A DNA stretch of 42,251 nucleotides from an uncultured Lachnospiraceae bacterium (GTDB taxonomy: Bacteria > Bacillota > Clostridia > Lachnospirales > Lachnospiraceae): NCBI GenBank assembly GCA_949502235.1, contig CATBDC010000035.1:1-42251 (forward strand), in the 5' to 3' direction. The position numbers were made by a program, and so were the translations under genes. Of the stretch, positions 12,663 to 33,230 are shown piece after piece. Each line of letters starts with the position of its first letter. Positions within the stretch are counted from its first letter, which is position 1. A model generated the notes under the pieces. The model worked only from the letters and a program-made list of their open reading frames with translations. It did not search any database and was not told the origin of the DNA.

Positions 12663-13682
12663 TTACAGATACACCACCTCATTGCTGTCAGCAGAGCGTC
12701 TGATGGCATCCATCATACAAATCACCTCATAGCTTTCTTCCGGTGTTACAGCCTCCGGCTGACACCCTTTTTCAACACTGTCTGCAAAATACTGAAGCTG
12801 TCTCTCATAAGCATCATACTGCTGTATTGGGACAGTTTGAAAGCCTTCCCCCCTTTTCCAAATGCTCATATTGCAGGTATTCACCGCACAAGTGCCTCCT
12901 GAAGGATTTACCAGTGTAGAAGCCCCGGAAGCATACTGGTATTCTACGGTTGCCTCACTCCCCGCTATATCTACAGAAAAACTAAAAGGATAGCCTGTCT
13001 GCTGGGTAAAAGAAACCTCTGCCAGAGAACGAACACCGTTTTTATGTATAATATTTGCCATAACATTATTGTAGCATCCTGTCTCGTCCTTTGATGCATT
13101 GGCAAATACACTTTGGAACGGCCCAATGGCATAACGCAGATAATCCACATCATGCACCAGCATGTCACCCATTGCGCCGCCGCCCAGAAGGGGGTCAAAG
13201 ATCCACTGGCTGTACTTCCCTGATCTGTGGGAAACTCTTCGCAGATGCATCATATGGATTTTACCTGCCTGTCCTTTTTGGAGCATACTCTTTATCTCCA
13301 CATACCCGGCCCAGAAGCGTACGACCTGCGCGGTCATAAAGATAATCCGGCCTTTTTCTGCTGCGTCTAATATTCTCCTGCACTCTGCCGGAGTTTTTGC
13401 AAGGGGCTTCTCACATAGTACATGGATATTCCTTTTTGCACATTGCTCTACATGGTCTGCATGTAAATAAGTAGGTGTACAGATAACCGCTGCATCCGGC
13501 CTGATTTCGTCCAGCATAGTCTCTACATCTGTATACTCCTCACACCCCTGCTCCTTTGCAAATTTAAAAACTGGCTCTTTTCTTCTGCCGCAGACTGCTG
13601 CCAGCTCTGCACCTTTGCAGTTGCGGATCGCATTTGCATGGCTTCCTGCAATCAGCCCGCATCCAATGATCACAAATTTCAT
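12663..13682 (-). CDS. Gfo/Idh/MocA-family sugar dehydrogenase
   Basis: This 339-residue NAD(P)-dependent oxidoreductase has the N-terminal Rossmann motif GCGLIAG (7-13) and the substrate-site CEKPLAKTPAE with the family lysine in EKP (91-93). The C-terminal sheet domain carries DPLLGGGAMGDMLVHDVDYL, the usual His/Asp region. Members oxidise or reduce sugars, inositols or sugar lactones. ATG 13682 follows AAGGAGGA closely. It is the last gene of the catabolic operon, directly after the lactonase-like gene, which would fit oxidation of a sugar phosphate to a lactone. A CGGCTC/GAGCCG hairpin lies downstream (12625-12638) without a T-run. Confidence 0.88.
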   Translation of the reverse strand: MKFVIIGCGLIAGSHANAIRNCKGAELAAVCGRRKEPVFKFAKEQGCEEYTDVETMLDEIRPDAAVICTPTYLHADHVEQCAKRNIHVLCEKPLAKTPAECRRILDAAEKGRIIFMTAQVVRFWAGYVEIKSMLQKGQAGKIHMMHLRRVSHRSGKYSQWIFDPLLGGGAMGDMLVHDVDYLRYAIGPFQSVFANASKDETGCYNNVMANIIHKNGVRSLAEVSFTQQTGYPFSFSVDIAGSEATVEYQYASGASTLVNPSGGTCAVNTCNMSIWKRGEGFQTVPIQQYDAYERQLQYFADSVEKGCQPEAVTPEESYEVICMMDAIRRSADSNEVVYL

Positions 13683-13715
13683 TTTCCTTCCTCCTTCCCG
13701 GAAACAAATTCTGAC

Positions 13716-14711
13716 TTACCAGGCAAGTATTCTCCCTGGGTTTTCATAAAAAATTTTATTTAACTGGCTTTCCGAAATTCCTTCCTGCCTCATCATCGGA
13801 AGGAAAACCTCCAGAATATATGTAAGCCCTGCCGCATCCTCACAGTAGCTTTTTAAACGGGCCCGGGTAGTATCCAGAGACATTAAAAGCTGCTCTTCAT
13901 TTTCTGCCAGAATCCTTTTTACCAGCCTAAGCTCTTCCTCATCACTGTGATACCGGAAGCGTCCGATTGTATCAAATTCCAGCGTAACTCCTCTCCTAAG
14001 AACCTTACGGAAGACCTCCCAGTTTCTGCATGCCCGGTCCATATGGCAGAAATAAACTCTGCGAAGATCGACCCCTGTCTCTTCCAGAAAACGCATAAGG
14101 CTTACCGGACTGCTTCCCTCCTCAATATGAACCATCATCGGGGCATTTGTCTCCTTCTGTGCTTTTGCTGCCGCAGGAAATAATTCTCTGTATGGTCCGG
14201 CCAGTCCGCAGCTGTCCAGGGCTGTCTTTATAATTCCTGCGCAGGTTCTGGTCTGAAAGACCTTTCCTTTTAAATCCTTCCATCCGTCAGACGTTTTGTT
14301 TTCAAAAGGGGAAGTATGCTCTGTCCCCACATACATCCCCTTTGTCAGTTCTTCTATAAAAAAGCCTGCAAGCCTGTCTCTATCTGTATTTCCAATCCAG
14401 TGTCCCTTCGGATAGAACTGCATTTTATGGAAGCCAGTGGAAGCTACAATATGTACCCCTGTGCGTGCTGATATCTCCTTCAGCTCTTCAGACATCCGAT
14501 TACACCCTCCGGGCTGGGCCTCCACAAATGCTGCCCCGCCCATTTCCCGGTAAGACGTTACCTCTTTTACAGAAGCCTCTATATCGTCCATCCACAAGGA
14601 GGGATTACACTCATAAGATACTCCTTTGCTCAGCATAAGATGTTCATGGCATTGTGTGAAACCCAGCTTTTCAGGAAACAGAGGCCCCAGCACTGTATGT
14701 ATCCTCTTCAT
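13716..14711 (-). CDS. Phosphotriesterase-family lactonase-like hydrolase
   Basis: This 331-residue protein belongs to the phosphotriesterase family (COG1735) of the amidohydrolase superfamily. The binuclear metal site is complete: H22 and H24 (CHEHL), K162 as the candidate carboxylated lysine (GIIKTA), H195 (VHIEEG), H223 (FCHMDR) and D280 (SLDTTR). Characterised relatives in Firmicutes and mycoplasmas hydrolyse lactones of pentose 5-phosphates. With a sugar kinase, an isomerase-like protein and dehydrogenases nearby, a phosphorylated sugar lactone is the likely substrate, though this is inference. It starts 6 bases after the cupin isomerase gene ends, with a modest ribosome site (AAGAGGAT). 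Confidence 0.85.
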   Translation of the reverse strand: MKRIHTVLGPLFPEKLGFTQCHEHLMLSKGVSYECNPSLWMDDIEASVKEVTSYREMGGAAFVEAQPGGCNRMSEELKEISARTGVHIVASTGFHKMQFYPKGHWIGNTDRDRLAGFFIEELTKGMYVGTEHTSPFENKTSDGWKDLKGKVFQTRTCAGIIKTALDSCGLAGPYRELFPAAAKAQKETNAPMMVHIEEGSSPVSLMRFLEETGVDLRRVYFCHMDRACRNWEVFRKVLRRGVTLEFDTIGRFRYHSDEEELRLVKRILAENEEQLLMSLDTTRARLKSYCEDAAGLTYILEVFLPMMRQEGISESQLNKIFYENPGRILAW

Positions 14712-14717
14712 ATCCTC

Positions 14718-15293
14718 TTACCATTTCAGATTGTCAATCACTGCCGGTTTCCCGTCTCTGTCTACTACCCTCTTATGATATCCCTTTGTCTCAATGGTGC
14801 CGTAATTATGCCCTGCATCAGCGTCAAATACAAAGAACAAAATCAGTGGGACGCTGCCTGTATTTACAGTTCTGTGGGCATAGCGCCGGGGCACATAGAC
14901 AGACTCATTCTTCTTAAGAGGTATTTCGGCCGTGCTGCCTTCCGGATTTTCCATTACCATATACCCTTCGCCGTTTAACGTATAGTAGACCTCCGATGTT
15001 TCCAGACGGGTATGAAAATGACCCTTTGTCATATAAAATTCATCTCCCACCATCCCCGGATAAAGAATCGTTGTACCAAATGCAAGATCACCTGGCCGCT
15101 CCGGACATCCCAGCTCGTAAAACTCATAAATCAGCGGGTCTTCCTTCTTTAGAATTTCCTTTACTGCCTCCGCATCAAAAAACATCTCCTGCATCTGCGA
15201 CAAATATCTTTTTGTTGTTTCCGCTGCTTTAGAACGTCCCGTATTTAAGTCAAAATCTACAGGAAATCCCCTATCCCAGTCAAATTGATTCAT
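14718..15293 (-). CDS. Cupin-type phosphoglucose isomerase
   Basis: This 191-residue protein is a cupin-fold glucose-6-phosphate isomerase (PF06560, first described in archaea). It interconverts aldose and ketose 6-phosphates. The metal ligands keep the spacing of the Pyrococcus enzyme: H92 and H94 (GHFHTRLE), E101 (SEVYY) and H140 (RRYAHRT). The TLNGEGYMVME strand is also typical. ATG 15293 follows GGAGGGAA. In a clostridium this form is presumably additional to the housekeeping isomerase and probably serves this pathway, perhaps on a different sugar phosphate. It lies between the FGGY kinase and the lactonase-like gene. Confidence 0.9.
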   Translation of the reverse strand: MNQFDWDRGFPVDFDLNTGRSKAAETTKRYLSQMQEMFFDAEAVKEILKKEDPLIYEFYELGCPERPGDLAFGTTILYPGMVGDEFYMTKGHFHTRLETSEVYYTLNGEGYMVMENPEGSTAEIPLKKNESVYVPRRYAHRTVNTGSVPLILFFVFDADAGHNYGTIETKGYHKRVVDRDGKPAVIDNLKW

Positions 15294-15313: not shown

Positions 15314-16840
15314 TTAGTCCACTTTATAAATTCTTTCAAAAACATCCTCCAAAGCAAAATAATATTTATCAAAAATATCCTTTATCCTTTTGTATTTTTC
15401 TACAGAGTCTCTGTCCGGTATCTGTACCTTGTCAATTCTTATAAAATGCTCAATTGCAGAAAAATCTTTATAAATTCCTGCACCTACTCCCCCAATAACT
15501 GCCGCGCCCATAGCGCCTCCTTCCTCTAACAGTCTGGGAACTTTAATCTTAGCATCATAAACATCCGCCATAATCTGCTGCCAGACTTCACTTCTGGCCC
15601 CGCCGCCTACAACTGTAATCTCCTCTATCTTTGTCTTTGTCCTCAAAATATCCAGACAAATGCACAGGTTCATTGTAATTCCTTCCAGCACACTCCGCAG
15701 CAGATCTCCCCGTGTATTCTCCGGCTTCATCCCGAGCCAGGCTCCCTTTGCATAGGGATTCCATCTTGGGGCGCGTTCACCCAGCATATAAGGAAGGAAA
15801 ATCACTCCGCCTGCACCTATGGCGCTTTCCTTCACCTGTTGGTTCATATAATCATAAGGAGACGCTTCCAACATTTTTGCCATCTCAGATTCCATACTGC
15901 AAATCGTATTTTTTACCCAGCTAAAGGAGCCGCCCGCATATTGCATTGTGCCATTAGGGGCATACAGTCCCGGAATTACGTGCGCCCATGTAACAGTACG
16001 CATCTGCTCATCGAAAACCGGCTGCTTTGCCGTTGTTGTAATCCACGCTGATGTTCCCATACAGCAGTATGTTTTTCCTGGTGCAATGGAACCACAGCCA
16101 ATATTAGCAACTACTCCGTCTCCGCCGCCCATAACTACCGGCGTCCCTTCTGCCAGCCCGGTCTTAGCCGCTGCCTTTCTTGTCACCCCGCCGGCAATAT
16201 ACGTAGACGGGACGATTTCAGGAAGCTTTTCACCGTCAATACCAGTACAGCCTAATATTCTGTCAGACCACTTAAACTCTTTCAAATCAAAGCATCCAAA
16301 GCTGTTGGCATCACTAGGCTCTGTATAGAAATTTCCTGTAAGCTTGAATACAATATAATCTTTGGCATTAAAAACCTTGTACGTCTTTTTATAAGTCTCC
16401 GGCTCGTTATCCCGGATCCACATCAGCTTCTGAATTCCATAGGAGGCAGTGTTCCTATGTCCTGAAATATGGTAATAGTCCTTCTGGCTAATCTTCTTTT
16501 CTATCTGCTGCACCTGCTTCTGCGCTCTTGAGTCTGCCCATATAATGGAAGGCCTAAGAGGCCTTCCCTCCTTATCCACGCACAGGCATCCCATCATCTG
16601 CCCGCTGAAGCTTACAGCAGCAATTTCTTTTGCCTCTATCCCGGCATCACGGATCAGCTCTTTACTGCTTCGGCATACTGCCTCCCACCAGTCCTCTGCC
16701 TCCTGCTCTACCCATGTATCATGAAAATAATGTGTCTCATAGGATACGGTTTTGCTTTTAATCAAATCCCCTTCCGTGGAAAATAATGTTGCTTTATTTC
16801 CCGAAGTTCCAATATCATGTGCTAATAAATATTTTGACAC
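15314..16840 (-). CDS. FGGY-family carbohydrate kinase (xylulokinase-like)
   Basis: This 508-residue kinase has the two-domain FGGY layout. The phosphate-1 motif is LAHDIGTSGNKATLF (6-20), SFSGQMMG is at 77-84, the catalytic base is D241 in MGGGDGVVANIG, and LGERAPRWNPYAKGAWLGM matches xylulokinases. The adenosine motif is VVGGGARSEVWQQIMADV. The substrate should be a ketose or polyol, but exact specificity cannot be read. Translation starts at GTG 16840 behind GGAGGGAT. The gene follows the isomerase-like gene by 24 bases, the usual isomerase-kinase pairing in sugar catabolism. Confidence 0.92.
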   Translation of the reverse strand: MSKYLLAHDIGTSGNKATLFSTEGDLIKSKTVSYETHYFHDTWVEQEAEDWWEAVCRSSKELIRDAGIEAKEIAAVSFSGQMMGCLCVDKEGRPLRPSIIWADSRAQKQVQQIEKKISQKDYYHISGHRNTASYGIQKLMWIRDNEPETYKKTYKVFNAKDYIVFKLTGNFYTEPSDANSFGCFDLKEFKWSDRILGCTGIDGEKLPEIVPSTYIAGGVTRKAAAKTGLAEGTPVVMGGGDGVVANIGCGSIAPGKTYCCMGTSAWITTTAKQPVFDEQMRTVTWAHVIPGLYAPNGTMQYAGGSFSWVKNTICSMESEMAKMLEASPYDYMNQQVKESAIGAGGVIFLPYMLGERAPRWNPYAKGAWLGMKPENTRGDLLRSVLEGITMNLCICLDILRTKTKIEEITVVGGGARSEVWQQIMADVYDAKIKVPRLLEEGGAMGAAVIGGVGAGIYKDFSAIEHFIRIDKVQIPDRDSVEKYKRIKDIFDKYYFALEDVFERIYKVD

Positions 16841-16864: not shown

Positions 16865-18193
16865 TCAATATGTAATTGCCTGAATTCCCAGCATTTCACA
16901 TAACATAACCAGCGCTTCCTCATGGGAGCCATAGCCAAATACACTGTGATTGCACCGAAGATTTCGATAAAACTCCATTGGGTCGCACTGAAGCCTTATA
17001 AATGCCTGCACCCATGTCCTGACAGCCTTAAGCTCCTCCTTCGGCTTCTTAAAAGCTCTTCCTTTTGCAATATTCATGACATATTCCCCGTTTTTCCTGC
17101 CAAGAGTCCCAAAGGTCACATCCCCCTCCTTTAGACAGAACAGGGTGCATGCCCCGCGTCCCGCGCCCATATACTCATATTGCTCTACAATGTCAATATC
17201 CTTATAGCTTTCCGCCAGCTTCCCGGGACCGCTTCCGCAGTGTATCATTCTCGCAACGCCACTTCCTGTGTCTACCATATTTACATCCCCGAAAAAATGC
17301 GGCTCTTTAGAAAGGGCAGAAAGAATATAGCCGGATAGCAGAGCATTCAGATTGCACTGGCAGCCGCAGATGTATCCTTCGTCATTCAGCATGGACAGTG
17401 CAGCACAGCAGGAGCAGTAGGAATCCATAAACTCGCCGATGCATTTGACAGTGACCATATGAAGAGAATATTCTTCTATTATTTCTTTAAATGCATAATA
17501 TATACTGGCACTTTTTTTCAGAGTTTCCTCCGGAACATCTACCGAACCATATTTTTCTCTTATTTGGCCTGCCAAAGCCTGGCACTTTTCCTCTGCTACA
17601 TTTTCTGCTTTCTTTAGGAGAACCATCTGGTCAATATGCTCTGCCTCGGTTCCAAAGATCTTTTTTATCTGGACTGGATCAGCTGTAGTGGGATAAGCGC
17701 TGATAGCCCTGCCGCCCAGCACGCCCATGCGCGTATGTGCAAGTGTACTTTTGACTGCCGCGGCTTTTGTAAAATTTTCTATGTGTTTTAAGACATCCCT
17801 GTCGTCTGGCAGCCCATAAAACAGCCAGTGGGAAATACCCATCTCATCCAGCGTACCGTGGAGAACATTTGCGCCCACGGAGGAAAAGGATGCGGCTTCA
17901 GGAATTCCCCAGATGCCAAAGGGAACCTTTATCCCGCGCACTGCATCCACCACATGAGCAGCAAGAAGCCATGTGCCTGCAAGATACACCATGCTCTGGG
18001 CGCCGGATGTCAGACATTCTTCTGTCTGCTTTCTCACGTCTTCGCCTGTAAGTGTGAAGCTGCTGTCCGGATTCACGATTTCGATACCGATATCATAAAA
18101 CGCTTTTTTAGCTTCCTCATGGAACTGTTTTCCCAGATCATTTCTCTCTCCCTTAAGCCCCACACAGATCAGCCCTGTTTTTACTGTTATCAT
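16865..18193 (-). CDS. L-fucose/L-arabinose isomerase-like protein with altered motif
   Basis: This 442-residue protein fits the fucose/arabinose isomerase superfamily in length and in landmarks such as VYLAGTWLLAAHVVDAV, LGGRAISAYPTTADP and VTVKCIGEFMDSYCSCCAALS. Those enzymes convert aldoses to ketoses with Mn. At 276-286 the segment that normally reads like CE-x-D-x-NALL reads CGCQCNLNALL, so the usual Glu and Asp are Gln279 and Asn281. Around it are many cysteines (C251, C260, C262, C263, C276, C278, C280). Either the chemistry differs or another residue substitutes. It starts at ATG 18193 behind GAGGTG, 9 bases after the aminotransferase gene. Confidence 0.8.
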   Translation of the reverse strand: MITVKTGLICVGLKGERNDLGKQFHEEAKKAFYDIGIEIVNPDSSFTLTGEDVRKQTEECLTSGAQSMVYLAGTWLLAAHVVDAVRGIKVPFGIWGIPEAASFSSVGANVLHGTLDEMGISHWLFYGLPDDRDVLKHIENFTKAAAVKSTLAHTRMGVLGGRAISAYPTTADPVQIKKIFGTEAEHIDQMVLLKKAENVAEEKCQALAGQIREKYGSVDVPEETLKKSASIYYAFKEIIEEYSLHMVTVKCIGEFMDSYCSCCAALSMLNDEGYICGCQCNLNALLSGYILSALSKEPHFFGDVNMVDTGSGVARMIHCGSGPGKLAESYKDIDIVEQYEYMGAGRGACTLFCLKEGDVTFGTLGRKNGEYVMNIAKGRAFKKPKEELKAVRTWVQAFIRLQCDPMEFYRNLRCNHSVFGYGSHEEALVMLCEMLGIQAITY

Positions 18194-18202: not shown

Positions 18203-19630
18203 TCAAAACTTGCTTTCTGCTTCACTAAGACAGCGGTCAAGGACATCAAGGACAAGATCAATATCCCTTTCTGTAATTACATATGGCGGCATAAATGTCA
18301 TCCGGTTGCCATAATAGCTGGAAAGATTAATCAAAACTCCGTATTCCAGCGCACGCTTTACGATAAATTCCGTCTCCTCCTTAGCCGGTTCCTTTGTCAT
18401 TCTATCCCTCACAAGCTCTATGCCAAGGCCAAGCCCCATACCTTCCACACAGCCAACAGACTTATGCTTCTTCTGAAGCTCCAAAAGCCCGTCCTTAAAA
18501 TATACTCCTCTTTCTTTTGCCTGCTCCAGAAGATTTAACCGCTTAATTTCTCTGATTGTAGTAGTGGCCGCCTTACAGCCGATTGCACTGCCGTGCCATG
18601 TCCCCATATGCTTATCCGGATGGCCGCTCCACACATCCATGATTTCACGCTTTCCAATAACCGCAGACAAAGGCCATACACCGCCTGATAATGCCTTAGA
18701 GGTTGTAATCAGATCCGGCACCACGTCATAGTTCTCAATACACCACCACTTTCCGGTTCTTCCCATTCCAATTGCAATCTCGTCAGCAATCATCACAATC
18801 CCAAATTCATCACAAATCTCACGAACCCCTTTAAAATATTCCAAAGGTGCATATACTCCGCCGCCATGGAACTGGGCAGGTTCTACAATCAGTGTAGAAA
18901 TCAGGTTTGTCTTTGTATTCGGATCATAAAGCCCGCACTCCGGTGTTTTAAACATTTCCCGGAAGGCCTTCAGGCAGAACATATCGCAGGAAGGATACTC
19001 TCTTCCATAGAAACAGCGGTAGCAGTACGGGAAAGGAATCCTGACAATATCATTTTTTACCGCAGGCACCTTTTCCCTGTAATAGGCACAAGGGGTTGCA
19101 GACAGGCCTGCAGACATTCTCCCGTGATACCCTCCATAATAGGAAATAATTCCGTGCTGGGGATGAGGCGTATAGTATTCTGCAATCTGCAGCGCCAGCT
19201 CCACAGCCGCACTTCCGCCAATCTCCGAATGAATCACCGGATCCATGCCTTCCGGAGCAATGGAGGCAAGCTCTTTTACAAACTCCGCTCTTGGAACGGT
19301 GGGCATATCTGCCACATGCATCATCTCTTTCCCCTGCTCATATACCGCGTCTAAAACAGTTTCCGGGGTATGGCCCAGACAAGAGGCCGCAAAAGGCCCG
19401 TAGGTGTCGATATACTCGTTTCCATCTGCGTCCCACTGCCTCACTCCGCTTTGCTTTACAAATACCGGAATGGTTTTTTCGTTATCAAAGGTTGCCCTCC
19501 AATACGTACCGCCGGATTCATACCGAAATAAATCTTCTTTTATCTGTGCGGATTTTTCACCCGGAAGCTCTCTTAGCTCGCCGCATGCACATCCCGTACA
19601 GCTTTGACATTCTTTACATTCTATCGTCAT
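18203..19630 (-). CDS. Class III aminotransferase with cysteine-rich N-terminus
   Basis: This 475-residue PLP enzyme belongs to the ornithine/4-aminobutyrate aminotransferase class. It has YYGGYHGR (164-171), D283 in IADEIAIGMGRTG, and the Schiff-base lysine K312 in TTSKALSGG. Such enzymes move an amino group from an omega-amino compound or amino sugar to a keto acid. Two unusual cysteine groups occur: C5, C8, C11, C14 and C16 in the first 16 residues, spaced CX2CX2CX2CXC, and C203, C206, C215, C219 in a loop seen in some relatives. The first set could hold metal or an iron-sulfur cluster. ATG 19630 has AAAGGAG about 12 bases upstream. Confidence 0.9.
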   Translation of the reverse strand: MTIECKECQSCTGCACGELRELPGEKSAQIKEDLFRYESGGTYWRATFDNEKTIPVFVKQSGVRQWDADGNEYIDTYGPFAASCLGHTPETVLDAVYEQGKEMMHVADMPTVPRAEFVKELASIAPEGMDPVIHSEIGGSAAVELALQIAEYYTPHPQHGIISYYGGYHGRMSAGLSATPCAYYREKVPAVKNDIVRIPFPYCYRCFYGREYPSCDMFCLKAFREMFKTPECGLYDPNTKTNLISTLIVEPAQFHGGGVYAPLEYFKGVREICDEFGIVMIADEIAIGMGRTGKWWCIENYDVVPDLITTSKALSGGVWPLSAVIGKREIMDVWSGHPDKHMGTWHGSAIGCKAATTTIREIKRLNLLEQAKERGVYFKDGLLELQKKHKSVGCVEGMGLGLGIELVRDRMTKEPAKEETEFIVKRALEYGVLINLSSYYGNRMTFMPPYVITERDIDLVLDVLDRCLSEAESKF

Positions 19631-23419: not shown

Positions 23420-23449
23420 TGTTTTTCCTCCAAATTTTCCTGCTAAATA

Positions 23450-24698: not shown

Positions 24699-24823
24699 TT
24701 TCATACCTCCCAGTCATTTTTGTTTTTTTGCGCACGGTTCTCTGCCCGAACGCTTTCCAATGTTTTAACCATAAAAATCTCCATCTTTGTAACACAGGCG
24801 TCTGTAAAAAGCTTCCATTTACT

Positions 24824-25846
24824 TTATATATGTTTACATGTAATAACCTTCCCTGTCTTTGCCGATTCCATGATATCCAGAAGCGTCAGACATACATTTG
24901 CACAGTCCTCAAGAGAAACAAAGAACTCCTCTCCTGACTCCAGCTTCTGAATAAAGCTTCGTATACTCTCATAGGCAAAGCCTTTGTGATGTCCGAAAAT
25001 CTGGTTCGATACAATACAGTCCCCGGTATCCATCCGTTCATCACTTGTTACCTTCAGGAGGTTATTATTGGACGCATCAATATCGATTTTTCCGCTTTCA
25101 CATACACAGGTAAATTTAATATCATTCACACAGGGGTTTCCGTTAGGAGTAATCCAGCCGTTTTCCATCTGGGCAATCACTCCGTTTTCAAACACAAGGC
25201 TGCTTAAATATACATCCACAGCATCCACCCCGGCAGCGTCCAGGACTCCTCTGGAGGAAAGAGCATAAACCTCTTTCACCCTGCTGTCCACGATCCAGCT
25301 CAATGTATCAAGGCAGTGACTTCCAAGAAACCACAAAATCGAAGATTTTGACGCCCATGACAGCATGTCTGTGGCAACGGAGCGGACATCATTCAAGCGG
25401 AAATACGCATTTACCGGTTTGCCGAACCGCCCGCTGTTTACAATATATTTTGCATTATTAAACGGCGGCGAGAAGCGGTTGTGCATATCAACCATGATGC
25501 GGACATGGTTCTTACCAGCAGCTTCCAGAATTGTGAAAACATCCTCTTTTGTTGTTGCCAGCGGTTTTTCAATCAGCATATGCTTCCCTGCATTTGCCGC
25601 GTCTACTGCAATATGAGTGTGCAGAAAATCCGGAGTTACGATAGAAACCGCATCACATCCTGATTTTTCAAGCATTTCCCTGTGATTATAATAGACCTTA
25701 GGAATGTGGTTTCTGGCCGCGAACTCGTCCGCACGCTTCCGGTCCACATCGCAGATTGCCACACATTCGGCATCCTTCATCTCCGAAAATATCCTTGCAT
25801 GCTCATTAGCCCACAAACCTGCACCAACGATTGCCATCTTTATCAT
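24824..25846 (-). CDS. Gfo/Idh/MocA-family dehydrogenase
   Basis: This 340-residue protein has the N-terminal nucleotide fold GAGLWANEHARIF, DFLHTHIAV and the signature lysine in LIEKPLATTKED. The C-terminal domain includes MVDMHNRFSPPF and LGSHCLDTLSWIV. It is clearly distinct from the family member at the other end of the operon (12663-13682), so the pathway probably has two separate redox steps. ATG 25846 has GGAGG 9 bases upstream. It sits between nagB and the binding-protein gene. Confidence 0.9.
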   Translation of the reverse strand: MIKMAIVGAGLWANEHARIFSEMKDAECVAICDVDRKRADEFAARNHIPKVYYNHREMLEKSGCDAVSIVTPDFLHTHIAVDAANAGKHMLIEKPLATTKEDVFTILEAAGKNHVRIMVDMHNRFSPPFNNAKYIVNSGRFGKPVNAYFRLNDVRSVATDMLSWASKSSILWFLGSHCLDTLSWIVDSRVKEVYALSSRGVLDAAGVDAVDVYLSSLVFENGVIAQMENGWITPNGNPCVNDIKFTCVCESGKIDIDASNNNLLKVTSDERMDTGDCIVSNQIFGHHKGFAYESIRSFIQKLESGEEFFVSLEDCANVCLTLLDIMESAKTGKVITCKHI

Positions 25847-25877: not shown

Positions 25878-26633
25878 TCATGCTCTTTTTACTTCTACAT
25901 ATGCTGCAGGCCTGATGTGCTCCGCCAGAGCCTGATCCAGAAAAATTGTACAATCTTGATGAAATTTTAAAATTGTCCCCTGACAGTCCGGCGTTACCTC
26001 CCCGTCCTCCAATATTTTCTTCATGGCATCCAGCTTTTCATCTCCTGTGGCAAGGAACACAATTTTCTTTGCACGCATGATCCCTCCTGTGCCCATCGTA
26101 ATTGCCTCCGTTGGAACTTCCTCCATGGAAGAAAAAAGCCGCGAATTGCTCTCTCTTGTTTTCTGTGTAAGCTTCACTGCATGAAATCTGTCATAAAATA
26201 CATCTGAGGGCTCATTAAACCCGATGTGGCCATTCACTCCCACACTTAATAGCTGCACATCTGACGGATTGGCGTCAGCAAACTGGTTCATTCTATGGAG
26301 TTCTTCCTGTACATCTGCCATGCCGTCAGGGATCATGACCCTTTTAGGAGGTATCTGACATGGATCCAGCAGGTGCTTACGCATAAAATACAGGTACGAA
26401 CCCGGATCCTCTCCGCTAAGCCCGATATATTCATCCAGATTAATCGTCCTTACCCTTCCAAAATCCACCTTTTTCTGCCTCGCTGCCTCTGCCATATATT
26501 TGTATACAGATATTGGCGTTGACCCTGTTGCCAGTCCTAACAGTGCATCTTCTTTTTCTCTTATAACATCCAGCATCATCTGTGCAGACAGATAAGCACT
26601 CTGCTCATAACTCTCTGTAACAATCAGCCTCAT
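25878..26633 (-). CDS. nagB: Glucosamine-6-phosphate deaminase family protein
   Basis: This 251-residue protein fits NagB, which converts glucosamine 6-phosphate to fructose 6-phosphate and ammonia. It has GLATGSTPISVYKYM near residues 33-47, the catalytic NLDEYIGL, and GVNGHIGFNEPSD. Length is normal. Placed beside a PIG-L deacetylase and sugar dehydrogenases, it may act on a related amino-sugar phosphate rather than glucosamine itself. ATG 26633 follows AGGTG; the PIG-L gene ends 5 bases upstream. Confidence 0.9.
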   Translation of the reverse strand: MRLIVTESYEQSAYLSAQMMLDVIREKEDALLGLATGSTPISVYKYMAEAARQKKVDFGRVRTINLDEYIGLSGEDPGSYLYFMRKHLLDPCQIPPKRVMIPDGMADVQEELHRMNQFADANPSDVQLLSVGVNGHIGFNEPSDVFYDRFHAVKLTQKTRESNSRLFSSMEEVPTEAITMGTGGIMRAKKIVFLATGDEKLDAMKKILEDGEVTPDCQGTILKFHQDCTIFLDQALAEHIRPAAYVEVKRA

Positions 26634-26638
26634 TTATG

Positions 26639-27490
26639 TCACCTCGTAAAACGCTCTAAAAGCTCTCTGGCTTCCTTATAAAAATTAATGATCAGCCCCA
26701 GTGTAAATTCTTCAATATCTAACTCCGGATTTTCAACAAGCGGCGTCAGGTCTACGCCGATATTGCATGAATTTGTCACATCATTGTCACGGGGAGCCTG
26801 GAATGTAGCATTGCCCAGACGTCTTCCGATGGCAGCTAAGTCAAATCTTTTAAGCGGAGTGCACTGAGATTCAAATGCCGTGATAACACCTGATTCAACC
26901 CTCGGATGCTCTGATGTATCAAAAACAAGCCTGTCCTTACTGCTTAGCCAGTCTAAAGAACGCCATACTTCCATACCATAGATCTTTTGGGGCCGCATTT
27001 CCGGCGGAAGCCTTCTTAGAGCCCCTATGGCACGCAGGCATGCCCCAAGGTGTGTTTCATGCCGGTCTGCCGGATTGTGGATAAACATATATTTTGGTCT
27101 TGCCTTTTTAATAAGCTCTGCCAGTTCCTCCTCAATTATGTCTCTTTTAGCCGTCCGAACGTCCTCACTGGAATATGCAAGCTGTACAACTGCCGCATAT
27201 CCTCCCACATCCGCGGCATCTCTCTGCTCCTGGGAGCGTTTTATGTGAATCTGCTCGTTGGTATAGTCTGCGTACTCACCTGAGCGGGGTGAACCTCCTC
27301 CGTCAGTCAGCACTACCGCAGTATACCAGTCGTCCTCTTTGCCATAACACCTGGCAATGGCATGGTATGCCATAATCTCGCAGTCATCCTGATGGGCGGC
27401 TATACTCATATATGTAGTACGCCCCAGCGCCTCTTCGTCCGGCACTCCATCCGGCACATGAATGTCCGCCTCTAAATTATAGAATTTCAT
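26639..27490 (-). CDS. PIG-L family deacetylase
   Basis: This 283-residue protein belongs to the LmbE/PIG-L zinc deacetylases, which remove acetyl groups from N-acetylglucosaminyl compounds. The metal motif AHPDDE appears as AHQDDCE, keeping His, both Asp and Glu with one extra residue. The later FIHNPADRHETH gives the third histidine. The C-terminal part (ATFQAPRDNDVTNSCNIGVD) is unlike the smallest family members. ATG 27490 has AAGGAGG 11 bases upstream; the in-frame GTG at 27502 overlaps that site. It precedes nagB by 5 bases, which suggests deacetylation followed by deamination. Confidence 0.88.
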   Translation of the reverse strand: MKFYNLEADIHVPDGVPDEEALGRTTYMSIAAHQDDCEIMAYHAIARCYGKEDDWYTAVVLTDGGGSPRSGEYADYTNEQIHIKRSQEQRDAADVGGYAAVVQLAYSSEDVRTAKRDIIEEELAELIKKARPKYMFIHNPADRHETHLGACLRAIGALRRLPPEMRPQKIYGMEVWRSLDWLSSKDRLVFDTSEHPRVESGVITAFESQCTPLKRFDLAAIGRRLGNATFQAPRDNDVTNSCNIGVDLTPLVENPELDIEEFTLGLIINFYKEARELLERFTR

Positions 27491-27528
27491 TGTTACTGCC
27501 ACCTCCTTAAAAAATTTGATAGAAAATG

Positions 27529-28473
27529 TTAAAATTTGGAAATCAATGTACCCCTGATTTTTTTATAGGCCTCATCCGCTTTATCTTTATAGGGCATATT
27601 TTCAATAACCCCCGGCATCATTACCTGCAGCCCCGAAGCCACAGCCGCATATTCTGCTGCTTCTATTATGTCATGAGTTTCCAGATATTTAACGGACAAT
27701 GCTGCATTGTAGCAGTCGCCTGCACCTGTGGTATTCACTGCCTTCCCCTTTAGCGCTCCTACATGGAAACGCCTCCCATTATGGGAAACAACAGAGCCCT
27801 GGCCTCCCATTGTAATGATTATATTCTCTGCACCGAGACCGTGCAGCTTATCGAACGCCTTGTCCACATCCAGAGGCCTTTCGGGATCCATACCAGCTAA
27901 TATGGCTGCTTCTGTCTCATTAGGTGTCAGGATCGTAATGTATGGAAATAATTCTGACGGGATCTTTCGTGCCGGAGCCGGGTTATATATGATCTCAATT
28001 CCAGCTTCTCCCGCAATCCTCATTACTTCACAAAGTGCATCGGCAGATATTTCATTCTGCAGCAGCATAAGCGAACTTTCCCGGATAACTGAAGTATACT
28101 TCCTGATGTGTTCTGGAGTTACATGCCGTATGGCTCCGGGATAAACATAGACTTCACTCTTTCCTTCCTCATTGTTAATGACAAATGCGCAGGCTGTTTT
28201 AAGCTCTGGAAACTTTATAATATATCTTCCTCCTACCTTTTCTGAAATTAAATCAGACTCACACCGGGCGCCGAAATCATCTCCTCCTACTGCTGTGATA
28301 AAATTGACATCTGCCCCCAGACGGCTTGCCGCAATGGCCTGATTATATCCCTTCCCGCCAGGTTCTGTCTCCAGTCCAAGCCCTTCTACTGTCTCACCGA
28401 CAGCCGGAAAATGTCCCACATCCATTAACAGAGACATTCCATAATGTCCAACTACTGTTATTGTCTTACCCAT
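27529..28473 (-). CDS. Ribokinase-like PfkB-family sugar kinase
   Basis: This 314-residue protein is closest to ribokinases: an N-terminal VVGHYGMSLLMDVGHFP, the substrate loop EPGGKGYNQAIAASRLGA, and the C-terminal NTTGAGDCYNAAL with the catalytic Asp and anion hole. The start at 28473 (MGKTITVVG) is chosen from AAGGAGGAG about 10 bases upstream; a longer frame reaches 28584 but would begin downstream of the probable transcription start without a ribosome site. It is the first gene of the minus-strand operon. Its substrate may be the deaminated sugar rather than ribose. Confidence 0.9.
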   Translation of the reverse strand: MGKTITVVGHYGMSLLMDVGHFPAVGETVEGLGLETEPGGKGYNQAIAASRLGADVNFITAVGGDDFGARCESDLISEKVGGRYIIKFPELKTACAFVINNEEGKSEVYVYPGAIRHVTPEHIRKYTSVIRESSLMLLQNEISADALCEVMRIAGEAGIEIIYNPAPARKIPSELFPYITILTPNETEAAILAGMDPERPLDVDKAFDKLHGLGAENIIITMGGQGSVVSHNGRRFHVGALKGKAVNTTGAGDCYNAALSVKYLETHDIIEAAEYAAVASGLQVMMPGVIENMPYKDKADEAYKKIRGTLISKF

Positions 28474-28550: not shown

Positions 28551-28586
28551 TTAGTAATGTTTTTATTATTTTTAATAACGTCATTA
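28551..28586. promoter_or_regulatory. Candidate operator(s) of the catabolic operon
   Basis: TTAGTAATGTTTTTATTAT (28551-28569) recurs almost exactly at 29734-29752 upstream of the second GntR gene (18 of 19 bases). Next to it TAATAACGTCATTA (28573-28586) is a near-perfect palindrome (12 of 14). Both lie just downstream of the minus-strand promoter at 28601-28629, a position that would block transcription. GTCATTATCT within it also recurs at 30559-30568. Regulator binding is inferred. Confidence 0.5.
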
Positions 28587-28600
28587 TCTTTTACAAGTTA

Positions 28601-28629
28601 ATCATAAGCACTTTTTTTATATTTGTCAA
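28601..28629 (-). promoter_or_regulatory. Promoter of the minus-strand catabolic operon
   Basis: On the minus strand TTGACA (28629-28624) and TATGAT (28606-28601) are 17 bases apart. The leader to the ribokinase-like start is about 120 bases and carries the candidate operators. The gap 28474-28856 contains no gene. Confidence 0.7.
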
Positions 28630-28779
28630 CTTAATATTTGCTTTTCTGCTATTATTACTATATTTTTTGATAATTATTTGTATAATATTCACAATATTCA
28701 GCCAATTAAAGGTACTTCTTCCTTGATTTTCCATTAGTACTTGTTTGATGGAAAAATTTAGCTTTTTTGACAAAATTCG

Positions 28780-28808
28780 TTGTTACTGTCAGTTTTATGT
28801 ACTATAAT
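28780..28808 (+). promoter_or_regulatory. Promoter of the first GntR gene
   Basis: TTGTTA (28780-28785) and a perfect TATAAT (28803-28808) are 17 bases apart, about 50 bases before the start codon. A TTGACA at 28767 is too far from any -10 to serve this promoter. Confidence 0.6.
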
Positions 28809-28856
28809 TGAATTCATACAATACTTCCATTTCACAGAAAAAACAGGAGAATACAA

Positions 28857-29618
28857 ATGTCATTTTATAGTACACAAATAGACAAAAACGTTCCCATACC
28901 TCTATATTACCAATTGAAGGAGCTTATTATCTCTGAGATAAAAAAGGGGAACTATGAAGAAAACAGCATGATTCCTACGGAAAAGGAGTTCAGCGATATT
29001 TTTTCTATCAGCCGCACAACGGTCAGGCAGGCAGTCACTGAACTAGTACAGGAAGGGTGGCTATACAGGATCAAAAGTAAGGGAACCTTTGTGACATCTC
29101 CAAAGGTTAATCAGGCCTTTATCCAATATCTGGAGCCATTCAATGAACAAATCCTTCGTTCTGGCAGGACTCCGTCTACACATTTGCTGGATTTTCAGGT
29201 CATAAAGGCAGATGAGCAGACTGCAGAGCAGCTTAACATTTCCCCCGGCACAAAAGTATTTTTTCTATACCGCCTGCGTTTTGCCGATAAGGATCCTATT
29301 GTGCTTGTAAAGACATTCATTCCCTGTGACATATGTCCGGAGCTAAGCAGTCATAATTTTTCCAGGGTTTCCCTGTATTCTGTACTTGGGCAGAAGTCTT
29401 CCTCACGCATCCACCATGTCCGAAGAGTGGCTGAGGCTGTGGCGGCTACAGAGGAGGACAGCCGGTATTTGGGGCTTGCTGTTGGGGAACCCATACACTT
29501 TTTTACTTCCATTGGATACACCGCTGCGCAAAGGCCAGTGGAGTATTCTCTTGCACGCTACCGGGGTGATAAAAATCAGTTTGAGGTCATAGTATACCCT
29601 AAAAATAATAAATGTTAG
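28857..29618 (+). CDS. GntR-family regulator with UTRA ligand domain (1)
   Basis: This 253-residue protein has a GntR winged helix at about 10-75 (PLYYQLKELIISEIKKGNY, TEKEFSDIFSISRTTVRQAV, then the wing RIKSKGTFVTSP). A HutC/FarR-type UTRA domain follows, with LLDFQVIKADEQTAEQLNI and FLYRLRFADKDPIVL. UTRA domains bind sugar phosphates or similar effectors. Placed divergently from the catabolic operon, it is a probable effector-sensing repressor of this locus. ATG 28857 follows AGGAGA. Confidence 0.92.
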   Translation: MSFYSTQIDKNVPIPLYYQLKELIISEIKKGNYEENSMIPTEKEFSDIFSISRTTVRQAVTELVQEGWLYRIKSKGTFVTSPKVNQAFIQYLEPFNEQILRSGRTPSTHLLDFQVIKADEQTAEQLNISPGTKVFFLYRLRFADKDPIVLVKTFIPCDICPELSSHNFSRVSLYSVLGQKSSSRIHHVRRVAEAVAATEEDSRYLGLAVGEPIHFFTSIGYTAAQRPVEYSLARYRGDKNQFEVIVYPKNNKC

Positions 29619-29752: not shown

Positions 29753-29766
29753 GACAGGTGATAGTT

Positions 29767-30489
29767 ATGGCGTCAATACCTATGTACAAGACAGTTTATA
29801 ATGGAATAAAACAGGCAATCAAAGACAAAGTCTATGAACCAGGTACGTTTCTTCCGACAGAACCACAGTTGGAAAAAATCTATTCTACAAGCAGGACAAC
29901 TATCCGAAAAGCAATTAAGCTCCTTGCTTCCGAGGGTTTTGTAGTCGTTCGTCAGGGACGCGGTACAGAAGTACAAAATATTTCTACACTACAAAAGCTT
30001 AATAATGTAACTTCTTTTACCGAAACCTTGATTAAAAAGGGATATACTGTTACGACACAAGGGATGTGCATCCAACTGGTACAGGTCCCCCCGGCTATTG
30101 CCCCCCTGCTGAATATTAGTACAGATGAGACTGTTTATCATGTGCAGCGGGTACAGTGTGCGAATAAGGAGCCTATCTGTATTATGGAGACTTATCTCAT
30201 CCGTACCCTTTTTCCTGACTTGGACAAATATAATGGCACCTTCACCAGCCTTTATAAATTTTTGGAAACCAATTATGGTCTGGTAATCAAAAATGCAACT
30301 GATAAAATCAGTGCTGCCTGTGCAGATTTTATTGATTCGCAGATACTGCAGATTCCCCTTGGTTCTGCTCTATTAGTCAGTAAACGTCTCTCCTACACTG
30401 AATCCGGTCCATTTGAGTACTGTCTTTCTAAAATCATCGCTGACAGATATGAATATGGAATTTATCTGAACGGCCGCGATTATAATTAA
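29767..30489 (+). CDS. GntR-family regulator with UTRA ligand domain (2)
   Basis: This 240-residue protein is a second HutC-type regulator. The winged helix spans about 5-70 (MYKTVYNGIKQAIKDKVY, TEPQLEKIYSTSRTTIRKAI, wing VVRQGRGTEVQN). The UTRA domain follows, with TVYHVQRVQCANKEPICIM and ending YEYGIYLNGRDYN. ATG 29767 is chosen with AGGTG 6 bases upstream; the in-frame GTG at 29758 is part of that site. Two tandem regulators suggest that two different effectors or promoters are controlled. It may be cotranscribed with the genes after it. Confidence 0.9.
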   Translation: MASIPMYKTVYNGIKQAIKDKVYEPGTFLPTEPQLEKIYSTSRTTIRKAIKLLASEGFVVVRQGRGTEVQNISTLQKLNNVTSFTETLIKKGYTVTTQGMCIQLVQVPPAIAPLLNISTDETVYHVQRVQCANKEPICIMETYLIRTLFPDLDKYNGTFTSLYKFLETNYGLVIKNATDKISAACADFIDSQILQIPLGSALLVSKRLSYTESGPFEYCLSKIIADRYEYGIYLNGRDYN

Positions 30490-30598: not shown

Positions 30599-31546
30599 AT
30601 GTTTCGCTATGAAAAGGCAACACAGCCTACCATTTATTTTATTGGTGTGACAACTGCTAAATCATCAATCATGAAAGTGTTTCCTGCATGGGCAGAAGCT
30701 CTTAAGCTGGAAAATACTGTTATCAGGGGAATTGATTTTTCTCCCCACTCTCCGGCTTGCGAGTACCGTAAAGCAGTAGAATTTATAAAAAACGATCCCC
30801 TCTCCCTCGGTGCATTAGTCACCACACATAAGATTGATCTCTACAATTCATGTAAGGATTTATTTGATTATATAGACCCATATGCAATGCAGCTTGGAGA
30901 GGTCTCCTCTATCTCCAAAAAGGATGGTCAATACCTCGCCCATGCAAAAGATCCCATATCCAGCGGTCTTGCTCTGGAAAACTTTGTTCCTGAAAATTAT
31001 TGGAGCAGCTACGGCGGGGATGTACTCCTTCTGGGGGCAGGCGGAAGCAGCCTTGCCATGAGCATCTATCTTGGTCAGGAAAAATTCGGCAGCAATATTC
31101 CGGGAAAAATTATAATTGCCAATCGAAGCCAGCCGCGTCTGGAATCAGCAAAAAGAATCCTGAAATCCGGGAATCCTAAAATTAATTTTGAATTTGTTCA
31201 CAATCCCTCTCCGGCAGACAATGATGCTACGCTTCTTTCCTTAAAGCCCCATTCTCTGATTGTCAATGCAACCGGATTGGGAAAGGATGCGCCTGGCTCT
31301 CCCTTAACTGATAACTGCTCTTTTCCGATGGACAGCCTGATATGGGAAATTAACTACCGGGGCAGCCTGCTTTTTAAGGAACAGGCTGAGAAACAGGCAA
31401 AGGAAAGGAACCTTCATATAGAGGATGGATGGATTTATTTCATCCACGGATGGACCCAGGTTATTGCAGAAGTATTCCATATAGAAATCACGGGCAGCAT
31501 GTTAGAACGGCTAAGTGAAATTGCAAGAAAAGCTGTAAATTCCTGA
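30599..31546 (+). CDS. Shikimate-dehydrogenase-like oxidoreductase
   Basis: This 315-residue protein has the AroE two-domain layout. The catalytic Lys and Asp appear as K78 (ALVTTHKIDLY) and D118 (HAKDPISSG), and the nucleotide loop is GAGGSS (146-151) followed by IIANRSQ. The usual N-terminal substrate motif with HS-x-SP is replaced by VTTAKSSIMKVFP, so the acid bound is probably not shikimate. The C-terminus keeps DGWIYFIHGWTQ, corresponding to the family's GxxMLxxQ region. Beside an aldolase and a 2-hydroxyacid dehydrogenase it probably oxidises a hydroxy acid or sugar acid. ATG 30599 has CAGGAGG 7 bases upstream. Confidence 0.8.
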   Translation: MFRYEKATQPTIYFIGVTTAKSSIMKVFPAWAEALKLENTVIRGIDFSPHSPACEYRKAVEFIKNDPLSLGALVTTHKIDLYNSCKDLFDYIDPYAMQLGEVSSISKKDGQYLAHAKDPISSGLALENFVPENYWSSYGGDVLLLGAGGSSLAMSIYLGQEKFGSNIPGKIIIANRSQPRLESAKRILKSGNPKINFEFVHNPSPADNDATLLSLKPHSLIVNATGLGKDAPGSPLTDNCSFPMDSLIWEINYRGSLLFKEQAEKQAKERNLHIEDGWIYFIHGWTQVIAEVFHIEITGSMLERLSEIARKAVNS

Positions 31547-31599
31547 TAGCTGCAAGTAATGAAACATAAATGAAAAACATAGAAAAGGAGTGACATACT

Positions 31600-32235
31600 G
31601 TGCCAGAACAAAAAAATATACTTGAGCTGATTGAGAACAGAAAGATTGTCCCTGTTGTAAAGCTTTATAACTCCGAGGATTCCCTCCCCTTATGTGAAGC
31701 CTTATGTGAGGGAGGCCTCCCTGTAGCCGAGATTACCTTCCGCACTGAAGCAGCGGAAGACTCTATCCGCCTCGCAGCAAAAGTTTATCCCGATATGCTC
31801 ATAGGAGCAGGTACAATCGTAAATACGGAACAGGCAAAACGTGCCGTAGATGCCGGAGCAAAATTTCTTGTAACTCCGGGATTTTCAAAAAAAGTAACAG
31901 AGTATGCAGCCAAAAACCATATCCTTATTTTTCCCGGTGTCTGCACCCCTACCGAAGTAATGTGCGCGCTTGAATATAATCTGGATGTTGTAAAATTCTT
32001 CCCTGCAAAGCAATATGGCGGGCCAGACACGATCAACGCCCTGTCTGCGCCGTTTCCGTCTATACGCTTTATGCCCACCGGGGGAATCAATGCCTCAAAT
32101 ATACGTGATTATCTGAAAAACGAAAAAATAATTGCCTGCGGCGGAAGCTGGATGGTAAAAGATACTTACATAAAGGAACATCAATTTACTGAAATCATCC
32201 GTCTTACCAAAGAAGCTGTAAAACTTACAAAATAG
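31600..32235 (+). CDS. KDPG/KHG-type aldolase
   Basis: This 211-residue class I aldolase matches the 2-keto-3-deoxy-6-phosphogluconate / 4-hydroxy-2-oxoglutarate aldolase family. E44 (VAEITFRT) is the acid-base residue, K132 (VVKFFPA) the Schiff-base lysine, and GAGTIVN and MPTGGIN bind phosphate. It splits a 2-keto-3-deoxy sugar acid phosphate into pyruvate and an aldehyde phosphate, the expected last step of the pathway. Translation starts at GTG 31600 with AAAAGGAG 9 bases upstream. A small GCCGC/GCGGC hairpin (32246-32263) follows before the next gene. Confidence 0.92.
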   Translation: MPEQKNILELIENRKIVPVVKLYNSEDSLPLCEALCEGGLPVAEITFRTEAAEDSIRLAAKVYPDMLIGAGTIVNTEQAKRAVDAGAKFLVTPGFSKKVTEYAAKNHILIFPGVCTPTEVMCALEYNLDVVKFFPAKQYGGPDTINALSAPFPSIRFMPTGGINASNIRDYLKNEKIIACGGSWMVKDTYIKEHQFTEIIRLTKEAVKLTK

Positions 32236-32279
32236 CAAAAAAAGCGCCGCCTGTTACAGCGGCAGAATGGAGTATCTTT

Positions 32280-33230
32280 ATGAAAATATTAGTAACCCCC
32301 ACCTCTTTACAGCCCGGAAAAAACGAGCCTATGCTGGATATACTGCGGTCATTTTCCGATGATCTGGTATTTAACGCCAGCGGACGTCCGCTCACGGAAG
32401 AAGAGCTGATTTTGCTCCTTCATGACTGTGACGGATATATAGCCGGACTCGATTTTGTGACAGAAAAGGTTATCAATGCCTGTCCAAGGCTCAAAGCCAT
32501 CTCCCGCTATGGAGCCGGCTATGACCGCGTAGATATTGAAGCTGCAAAAAAGAAGGGGATCGTTGTAACTAACACTCCCGGTGTTAATGCCCAGGCAGTA
32601 GGAGAACTGGCTTTTGCACTCATTTTGTCACTTGCCCGGAGAATCCCTTACCTGGATGCAGAAACCCGTAATGGGAAATGGATCCGTTCCACGGGGATAG
32701 AATTAAAGGGAAAAACCCTGGGCATTATCGGACTGGGAGCAATTGGGAAGGTAGTGGCAGCATGCGGGCAGGGCTTTCATATGAATGTCATTTCCTACGA
32801 CCCTTATATTAGCGATGCATATTGCAGGGAACACAGCATTGATATTTGTTCCTTCGATGATGTTATACAGCATGCGGATGTCATAAGCCTTCATCTGCCC
32901 CTGAATGAACAGACACATCATATCATCAATAAAAAAACGATTTCTGAAATGAAGCCAAATGTGATTCTGGTTAACACCTCCAGAGGAGGCATCATTGACG
33001 AAGCTGCTGCCTTTGAGGCACTGCAGTCCGGACATCTTGGCGGTCTGGGGCTAGATGCTTTTGAAACAGAGCCTCCAAAGAATTCACCCCTGTTTGAGTT
33101 AGACAATGTTGTAGTGACTCCCCATACAGGAGCCCACACGCGGGAGGCGACTATGAATATGGCTGCTTCTGCTATTCAAAATCTGATTGATGTGCTTTCG
33201 GACAGGGATTGTCCGTACGTTCTCAATTAA
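32280..33230 (+). CDS. D-2-hydroxyacid dehydrogenase (phosphoglycerate dehydrogenase-like)
   Basis: This 316-residue NAD-dependent enzyme has the Rossmann motif GLGAIGK (151-157) and the catalytic triad R235 (NTSRGGIID), E264 (FETEPP) and H282 (TPHTGAHT). It lacks the ACT regulatory domain of biosynthetic SerA, so a catabolic 2-hydroxyacid is likely. It could reduce a 2-keto acid or oxidise a sugar acid made in this pathway. ATG 32280 follows TGGAG by 7 bases. It is the last gene of the plus-strand arm and is followed by a terminator. Confidence 0.9.
   Translation: MKILVTPTSLQPGKNEPMLDILRSFSDDLVFNASGRPLTEEELILLLHDCDGYIAGLDFVTEKVINACPRLKAISRYGAGYDRVDIEAAKKKGIVVTNTPGVNAQAVGELAFALILSLARRIPYLDAETRNGKWIRSTGIELKGKTLGIIGLGAIGKVVAACGQGFHMNVISYDPYISDAYCREHSIDICSFDDVIQHADVISLHLPLNEQTHHIINKKTISEMKPNVILVNTSRGGIIDEAAAFEALQSGHLGGLGLDAFETEPPKNSPLFELDNVVVTPHTGAHTREATMNMAASAIQNLIDVLSDRDCPYVLN

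Follow-up and report, generated by a model that had tools for sequence, protein, structure and literature searches.

Among described systems, those closest to the locus considered here are the Entner-Doudoroff pathway and the NagA/NagB route of N-acetylglucosamine catabolism, together with the families to which some of its single proteins lead: the L-fucose isomerases, in which an E-x-D motif is part of the metal site, and shikimate dehydrogenase (AroE), in which a lysine and an aspartate are catalytic. The locus is a run of nineteen contiguous genes at 12663-33230 of a stretch of 42,251 nucleotides, here called the window, of contig CATBDC010000035.1 from an uncultured Lachnospiraceae bacterium (assembly GCA_949502235.1). 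Fourteen genes lie on the minus strand (12663-28584) and five on the plus strand (28857-33230), on either side of a divergent control region (Table 1, which also explains the labels). We tentatively read the locus, with a confidence somewhat short of even, as a merger of modules found apart in other genomes that would together degrade an imported sugar containing nitrogen, or a few related ones. We rate it a real and modular variant of oxidative sugar catabolism, and its lower module, which pairs the AroE-like dehydrogenase with a lactonase-type hydrolase and the 2-hydroxyacid dehydrogenase HADH, is the most interesting part.

The lower module was followed through relatives of its AroE-like protein. 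These were found at 67-78% identity in 8 of 199 other family genomes, in a search that took in none of the genus-mates G201, G202 and G204; of 72,556 plasmid records, 15 contain one at 48-57%. Six of the plasmid records, all from alphaproteobacterial plasmids (L054-L059, with L054 from Sinorhizobium meliloti strain Ak57), were examined, L056 by tblastn as it carries no annotation. Together with twelve loci from the Lachnospiraceae/Clostridiales side (L046-L053, L081, L082, L086 and L088), this makes 18 loci, the window and its direct orthologues not counted. Three of the loci are short or truncated (L046, 7.9 kb; L049, 5.5 kb; L086, which breaks off within GntR1), and a gene missing there says little; L081 and L088 belong to near relatives of the window and are possibly not two independent cases.

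All 18 loci carry the AroE-like dehydrogenase, a lactonase-type hydrolase and HADH together. The hydrolase is PTE in all twelve loci of the Lachnospiraceae/Clostridiales side and an MBL-fold protein in all six plasmid loci; because one fold stands where the other stands, the exchange suggests that both carry out the same reaction. cupGPI accompanies them in 17 of the 18 loci, and the KDPG aldolase and FGGY (24-73% identity) in 14 each. None of M20, AT3, Iso, PIGL or NagB matched in any of the 18 (E 1e-10 for 16 loci and 1e-8 for L086 and L088). L048 and L086 also carry an importer whose ATPase is 66-68% identical to that of the window, plus a GntR1 at 52-53%. By these matches, a module that occurs independently of the remaining genes contains counterparts of the window's FGGY, cupGPI, PTE, importer, GntR1, AroE, KDPG and HADH. 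For a rough comparison we used five loci with neither AroE nor the AT3-Iso pair (L033, L034, L035, L062 and L073), which had been picked on other grounds and are not a random sample; none of them carries AroE, PTE, MBL, HADH, KDPG or cupGPI. Taken globally, we give a nearly even chance to a widespread, undescribed oxidative sugar route common to Lachnospiraceae and alphaproteobacterial plasmids, in which an AroE-family sugar (phosphate) dehydrogenase would be paired with a 2-hydroxyacid dehydrogenase and with one or the other of two unrelated lactonases, joined here to a rare acyl- and amino-removing front end with an isomerase of rebuilt metal site.

The AroE-like protein has no Pfam match at E 0.001 and scores 20-33 bits against the NCBIfam AroE models, the cut-offs of which are 200-413 (33.2 of 413; TIGR00507, 30.3 of 200.2). 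Across 17 sequences 84 residues are invariant, including K78 and D118, which fall on matching residues in a weak alignment with 1nvt. For PTE, the best PDB matches are 3msr and 3pnz, which we take to hydrolyse phosphorylated lactones, and the best NCBIfam match is phospho-furanose lactonase, at 134.2 bits below its cut-off of 630.

Elsewhere, the neighbours of AroE modules include SDR proteins, zinc alcohol dehydrogenases, a D-psicose 3-epimerase (432.8 bits over 300), a glycerol dehydrogenase together with a glycyl radical enzyme, and what looks like a split transketolase. At L052 (5264-9601) the glycyl radical enzyme, of uncertain substrate, lies inside the module with what looks like its activase and the glycerol dehydrogenase. 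At L058 (11473-12816) the MBL-fold hydrolase of the module is fused to a low-molecular-weight phosphatase domain.

The front end, on the other hand, is rare. The AT3-Iso pair is shared by three more genomes close to the window and by a distant one, G623, from another class of the same phylum. Close relatives of AT3 were found in the window's own genome only among 200 family genomes (E 1e-80) and among 295 order genomes (1e-120), and in the own genome plus G623 among 398 phylum genomes. Contig C24 of G623 encodes in one direction GntR, cupGPI (44%), an aldehyde-ferredoxin-oxidoreductase-like protein, SBP, ATPase (45%), Perm (38%), two AT3 copies (56% and 63%), Iso (47%) and FGGY (45%), which is the importer-M20-AT3-Iso-FGGY order of the window minus M20. 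On contig C44, KDPG (29%), HADH (43%), FGGY (33%), a second such oxidoreductase and GntR are divergent from AT3 (40%), another importer and Iso (44%). AroE has no match in G623 at E 1e-5; here the oxidoreductase, by direct oxidation of an aldehyde to the acid, may stand for AroE and the lactonase. A selenocysteine in one G623 AT3 copy, considered on account of a reported TGA, was dropped after the aligned protein showed no internal stop. A further AT3 homologue in this genome (46%) adjoins an importer at L073 (5229-9947), with a glycyl radical enzyme and, by look, an activase.

Iso itself carries a distinctive change. It matches the L-fucose isomerase C-terminal domain PF02952 (50.3 bits over 29.3), and its best NCBIfam match, the sulfoquinovose isomerase SftI (NF048012), is far below the cut-off (114.1 of 700). 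Among 27 aligned sequences, E-x-D is present in all 23 distant members (two of the 25 distant loci, L026 and L027, had no match at 1e-5 and are not in the alignment), while the window and three close relatives have Q-C-N; both G623 copies have Q-S-D at this position. From its spacing to E253, N280 is presumably at the metal-ligand position of arabinose/fucose isomerases, and the metal site of Iso is therefore probably changed. Neither Iso nor PIGL has a PDB match by sequence.

Close relatives of the whole locus were sought by scanning the genome collection with six 8-residue patterns from Iso, which reach close relatives only, and three loci were returned: L028, L029 and L030. In L028, from a Lachnospiraceae bacterium, the minus-strand genes stand in the same order (83-98% identity), and on contig C7 of the genus-mate G200 the plus-strand genes are kept too (84-96%). 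L029 retains PIGL, NagB, GfoA, M20, AT3, Iso, FGGY, cupGPI and PTE at 70-93%, with an importer that differs from the window's and an extra SDR gene; on the same contig (L029/L087) RbsK, GntR2, AroE, KDPG and HADH are also kept (76-92%). No GntR1 orthologue was found on that contig, and since the importer differs as well, the two may have been exchanged together. L030, from a Clostridiales bacterium (genome G876), has a LacI-type regulator and, in a single run, M20 (67%), AT3 (78%), a different importer and Iso (60%). G876 thus holds M20-AT3-importer-Iso on one contig, and AroE-cupGPI-PTE-KDPG-HADH-importer-GntR1 on another. Because modules on different contigs of G876 form one locus in the window, it is plausible that the lower module and the front end share one pathway here.

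From the observed gene families, module conservation and gene order we infer a scheme, that is, its substrate, every reaction, their order and the service of all modules to one substrate. The importer would bring in an N-acylated amino sugar or amino-polyol, from which M20 would take off the acyl group before AT3 turns the amine into a carbonyl. The divergent Iso would then convert the aldose to a ketose, to be phosphorylated by FGGY, and cupGPI would convert the ketose phosphate to an aldose phosphate. The AroE-like dehydrogenase would oxidize this to a phospholactone, which the PTE-family hydrolase would open. Finally, HADH and the KDPG-type aldolase would produce a 2-keto acid phosphate and cleave it to C3 units; alternatively, HADH might reduce a C3 product such as hydroxypyruvate. 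RbsK, PIGL and NagB would form a side branch for acetylated hexosamine, and GfoA and GfoB are placed at no step. The minus-strand order M20-AT3-Iso-FGGY-cupGPI-PTE fits the succession amide, amine, aldose, ketose, ketose phosphate, aldose phosphate, lactone and acid, which is suggestive, not proof.

The side branch may be a NagA-free route for acetylated hexosamine. In the own genome of the window, about 96% complete, no NagA was found over the cut-off (best 31.8 bits, cut-off 225.65), and the only match to the NagB model TIGR00502 is the window gene (211 bits, cut-off 236.9). RbsK, PIGL, NagB and GfoA accompany the locus in G200 and G875 and were not seen in the loci L030, L072 and L074. PIGL has one further match among 199 family genomes, in G087. 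There (L062, 1014-8794) the run that holds the PIG-L homologue (48-50%) also includes a GH94 phosphorylase and a phosphohexomutase, which may hint at a role with GlcNAc oligosaccharides.

A number of observations weigh against a merged locus serving one substrate. Among the 18 AroE loci, the KDPG aldolase was not found in four and FGGY reaches at least 69% identity in only three; given such low identities near AroE, and an FGGY gene at 30% in the control locus L033, the presence of FGGY alone is weak evidence. AroE modules elsewhere have importers of their own and different neighbours, so the substrate of the lower module may be another than that of M20, AT3 and Iso. No dehydratase that would act ahead of the KDPG-type aldolase was found among the 19 proteins. 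On the side of the front end, M20 has no match in either G623 locus, the FGGY downstream of Iso in L030 (11619-12008) is a remnant that matches in three short pieces, and the nearest PDB relatives of AT3 are isoleucine 2-epimerases and amino-acid racemases. The G623 oxidoreductases score only 168-186 bits against the aldehyde-ferredoxin-oxidoreductase model (cut-off 868). The absence of NagA is not firm either, since among 14 control genomes only 7 score over the cut-off of the NagA model and only 4 over that of the NagB model. Moreover, the window, G200 and G875 look like close kin and are not independent cases.

The earlier, sequence-only reading had joined all nineteen genes into one pathway, which oversimplifies the locus, and proposed a search for their co-occurrence across genomes. 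What recurs is the parts: the lower module in 18 of 18 loci, always without M20, AT3, Iso, PIGL and NagB, and the AT3-Iso part, in the FGGY-containing order in G623 and with neither PIGL nor NagB beside it in L030 or in the two G623 loci; the whole set is not kept together there. In favour of a single pathway, G876 holds both parts, and AroE is present in four of the five genomes with the AT3-Iso pair compared with 8 of 199 other family genomes, although three of these four (the window included) look like close kin. Alternatively, two or three unrelated pathways may lie side by side by chance: one block for acetyl-hexosamine (RbsK, PIGL, NagB and GfoA), one made up of AT3 and Iso, and an AroE module equipped with a separate importer and regulator. 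Consistent with this, L048 and L086 give the AroE module its own importer and GntR1, the module lacks the rest in every examined locus, AT3-Iso stands without adjoining PIGL and NagB in L030 and G623, and L029/L087 keeps the rest while importer and GntR1 differ or are missing. However, most minus-strand gaps are short (2-59 bases) and the blocks are mixed, with FGGY, cupGPI and PTE directly after Iso; AT3-Iso-FGGY recurs with cupGPI in one G623 run, and G876 has both parts, apart but within one genome. Overall, we consider unrelated pathways unlikely, yet a serious contender.

Two further explanations concern the substrate. In a sugar-amino acid conjugate, M20 would split the amide, AT3 would racemise or transaminate the amino acid, and Iso, FGGY and the lower module would take the sugar half. 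M20 is indeed nearest to ArgE/DapE-type deacylases, AT3 is nearest to the racemases and epimerases named above, and M20, AT3, importer and Iso form one run in L030. In G623, though, AT3 adjoins Iso twice with no M20 match in either locus, which ties AT3 to a sugar step rather than to an amide, and AT3 is well below the cut-off of the leucine/methionine racemase model LeuMetRace (265.4 of 800); a conjugate therefore seems distinctly doubtful to us. With an aminocyclitol or inositol-like ring, the Gfo/Idh/MocA enzymes and the AroE-like protein would oxidise the ring and the PTE-family protein would open it. AroE proper acts on a carbocycle, inositol 2-dehydrogenase is among the two best NCBIfam matches of both GfoA and GfoB (133-137 bits, cut-off 355), and the neighbouring zinc dehydrogenases of other loci match scyllo-inosose 3-dehydrogenase at 113-205 bits (cut-off 450). 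All these scores are under their cut-offs, no inositol-ring gene such as IolE was seen among the 19 proteins, and FGGY and cupGPI are better suited to a linear sugar, which makes a cyclitol highly improbable. Three labels were rejected: sulfoquinovose, as Iso is far under the SftI cut-off and among the 19 proteins we saw nothing else of sulfoglycolysis; N-acetylglucosamine only, which leaves AT3, Iso and the lower module unaccounted for; and riboflavin degradation. In the fin neighbourhood of riboflavin degradation (PMC12934955) there are a RibF homologue, a class I aldolase, dehydrogenases for alcohols and aldehydes, and genes of the glycine-reductase type, a set that differs from the window's.

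The layout of the locus had been described correctly from the letters: the open reading frames confirm nineteen contiguous genes around a divergent region, and profile matches to Pfam and NCBIfam, on which our assignments are based, agree with the families named then and bear out the catabolic look of the locus. The earlier statement that no described pathway is known with this set is also in line with our results, as the combination did not turn up in open-licence papers, a restriction that makes the absence weak evidence. RbsK more likely starts at 28473, just downstream of AAGGAGG, than at the open-reading-frame end of 28584.

Table 1. Features of the locus in the window, with profile matches (scores in bits) and relatives; L and G numbers are our handles for loci and genomes.
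Feature	Coordinates	Strand	Matches and relatives
GfoB, Gfo/Idh/MocA dehydrogenase B	12663..13682	-	PF01408
PTE-family hydrolase, proposed phospholactonase, lower module	13716..14711	-	PF02126
cupGPI, cupin-type phosphoglucose isomerase, lower module	14718..15293	-	PF06560
FGGY kinase, proposed ketose kinase	15314..16840	-	TIGR01312 (xylulokinase) 402.4 over 380.25; 69-73% adjoining AroE modules L046, L048, L052
Iso, fucose-isomerase-fold protein, altered E-x-D motif	16865..18193	-	PF02952 50.3 over 29.3; 60% L030, 44-47% G623
AT3, class III aminotransferase family	18203..19630	-	PF00202; 78% in L030, 40-63% in G623
M20 amidohydrolase, proposed N-acyl remover	19690..20976	-	TIGR01910 303.8 over 217.6; 67% in L030
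Perm, importer permease	20994..21920	-	PF02653 (BPD_transp_2)
ATPase of importer, two-domain sugar ABC ATPase	21923..23458	-	66-68% identity to ATPases adjoining AroE in L048, L086
SBP, importer sugar-binding protein	23568..24704	-	PF13407 (Peripla_BP_4)
GfoA, Gfo/Idh/MocA dehydrogenase A	24824..25846	-	PF01408
NagB-like deaminase	25878..26633	-	TIGR00502 208-211, cut-off 236.9
PIGL, PIG-L/LmbE-type deacetylase	26639..27502	-	PF02585 56 over 28.2
RbsK, PfkB/ribokinase-like kinase	27529..28473	-	TIGR02152 265, cut-off 299.65; PF00294
Divergent control region	28585..28856		between minus- and plus-strand genes
GntR1, GntR-UTRA regulator	28857..29618	+	PF07702, PF00392; adjoins AroE modules L046, L047, L048, L052, L053, L086
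GntR2, GntR-UTRA regulator	29758..30489	+	PF07702; 92% in L087
AroE-like dehydrogenase, lower-module marker	30599..31546	+	weak AroE scores; 84 invariant residues in 17 sequences
KDPG/KHG aldolase	31600..32235	+	TIGR01182 246 over 156.05
HADH, D-2-hydroxyacid dehydrogenase, lower module	32280..33230	+	PF02826

Intergenic gaps on the minus strand are 2-59 bases, except for 119 and 109 on the two sides of the binding-protein gene; on the plus strand, gaps of 139 and 109 bases follow the two regulator genes. The best promoter-like site of the divergent region, a consensus match only, agrees at 11/12 positions (minus strand, 28629-28601). The scans carry little weight, with 60 promoter-like sites compared with 42.0 (standard deviation 6.9) in shuffled sequence, and 14 terminators compared with 16.2. 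Between genes only short, weak repeats were seen and we claim no operator; Rfam gave 0 matches in 11000-34500.

Beyond 33230 the next gene is the tRNA-modification gene mnmL/ytqA. In the genus-mate G203 (L082, C2:186500-206400) an AroE-PTE-HADH module with FGGY, importer and, by look, split transketolase adjoins the same ytqA and (by look) ChrA genes, so the ytqA-side site may collect sugar modules. At the end of the minus-strand run, 11178-12530 encodes what look like joined hemerythrin and response-regulator domains (79% in G200, where the protein sits between HADH and ytqA instead). Further away are a small gene pair that looks like a PIN-domain toxin-antitoxin module (2965-3664) and, by look, an AAA-ATPase with a nuclease-like C-terminal part (4397-6100).

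These results have consequences beyond the window. Where records list shikimate dehydrogenase, phosphoglycerate dehydrogenase and glucose-6-phosphate isomerase, as the annotated plasmids do, the genes in question may be part of an unassigned sugar pathway. Replacement of PTE by the MBL fold, and perhaps of AroE and lactonase by the aldehyde-ferredoxin-oxidoreductase-like protein in G623, yields testable single-step predictions. For the gut, the locus suggests that some Lachnospiraceae could use a nitrogen-bearing sugar that has yet to be named.

In comparison with known systems, the proposed sequence, in which a sugar phosphate becomes a lactone and then an aldonate phosphate and a KDPG-type aldolase (TIGR01182 over its cut-off) acts last, resembles the Entner-Doudoroff pathway. 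It differs in that no Edd-type dehydratase (ILVD/EDD) matched among the 19 proteins, the rest of the genome not having been searched, and in having the AroE-like protein and PTE (MBL elsewhere) where Zwf and Pgl would be, with a 2-hydroxyacid dehydrogenase added. With NagA/NagB catabolism of N-acetylglucosamine it shares a NagB-like deaminase, a kinase and a deacetylase-family gene lying together, but PIG-L takes the place of NagA, which is missing over the cut-off from the genome, and the kinase is of PfkB type. AT3 has its closest solved relatives among isoleucine 2-epimerase and the class III PLP racemases, yet it is under the racemase model cut-off and adjoins a sugar isomerase-like gene and a kinase. 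Iso belongs with SftI and the L-fucose isomerases by its PF02952 match and its best NCBIfam match, NF048012, but it reaches 114 bits compared with 700 for SftI, and Q-C-N replaces E-x-D. Similarly, PTE has the phospho-furanose lactonases (3msr and 3pnz) as its best NCBIfam and PDB matches, at 134 bits against a cut-off of 630. Finally, the AroE-like protein aligns weakly with shikimate dehydrogenase over the NAD(P) half and at its invariant Lys and Asp positions, whereas at 20-33 bits compared with 200-413 it forms its own subfamily, which stands beside sugar genes in every examined locus.

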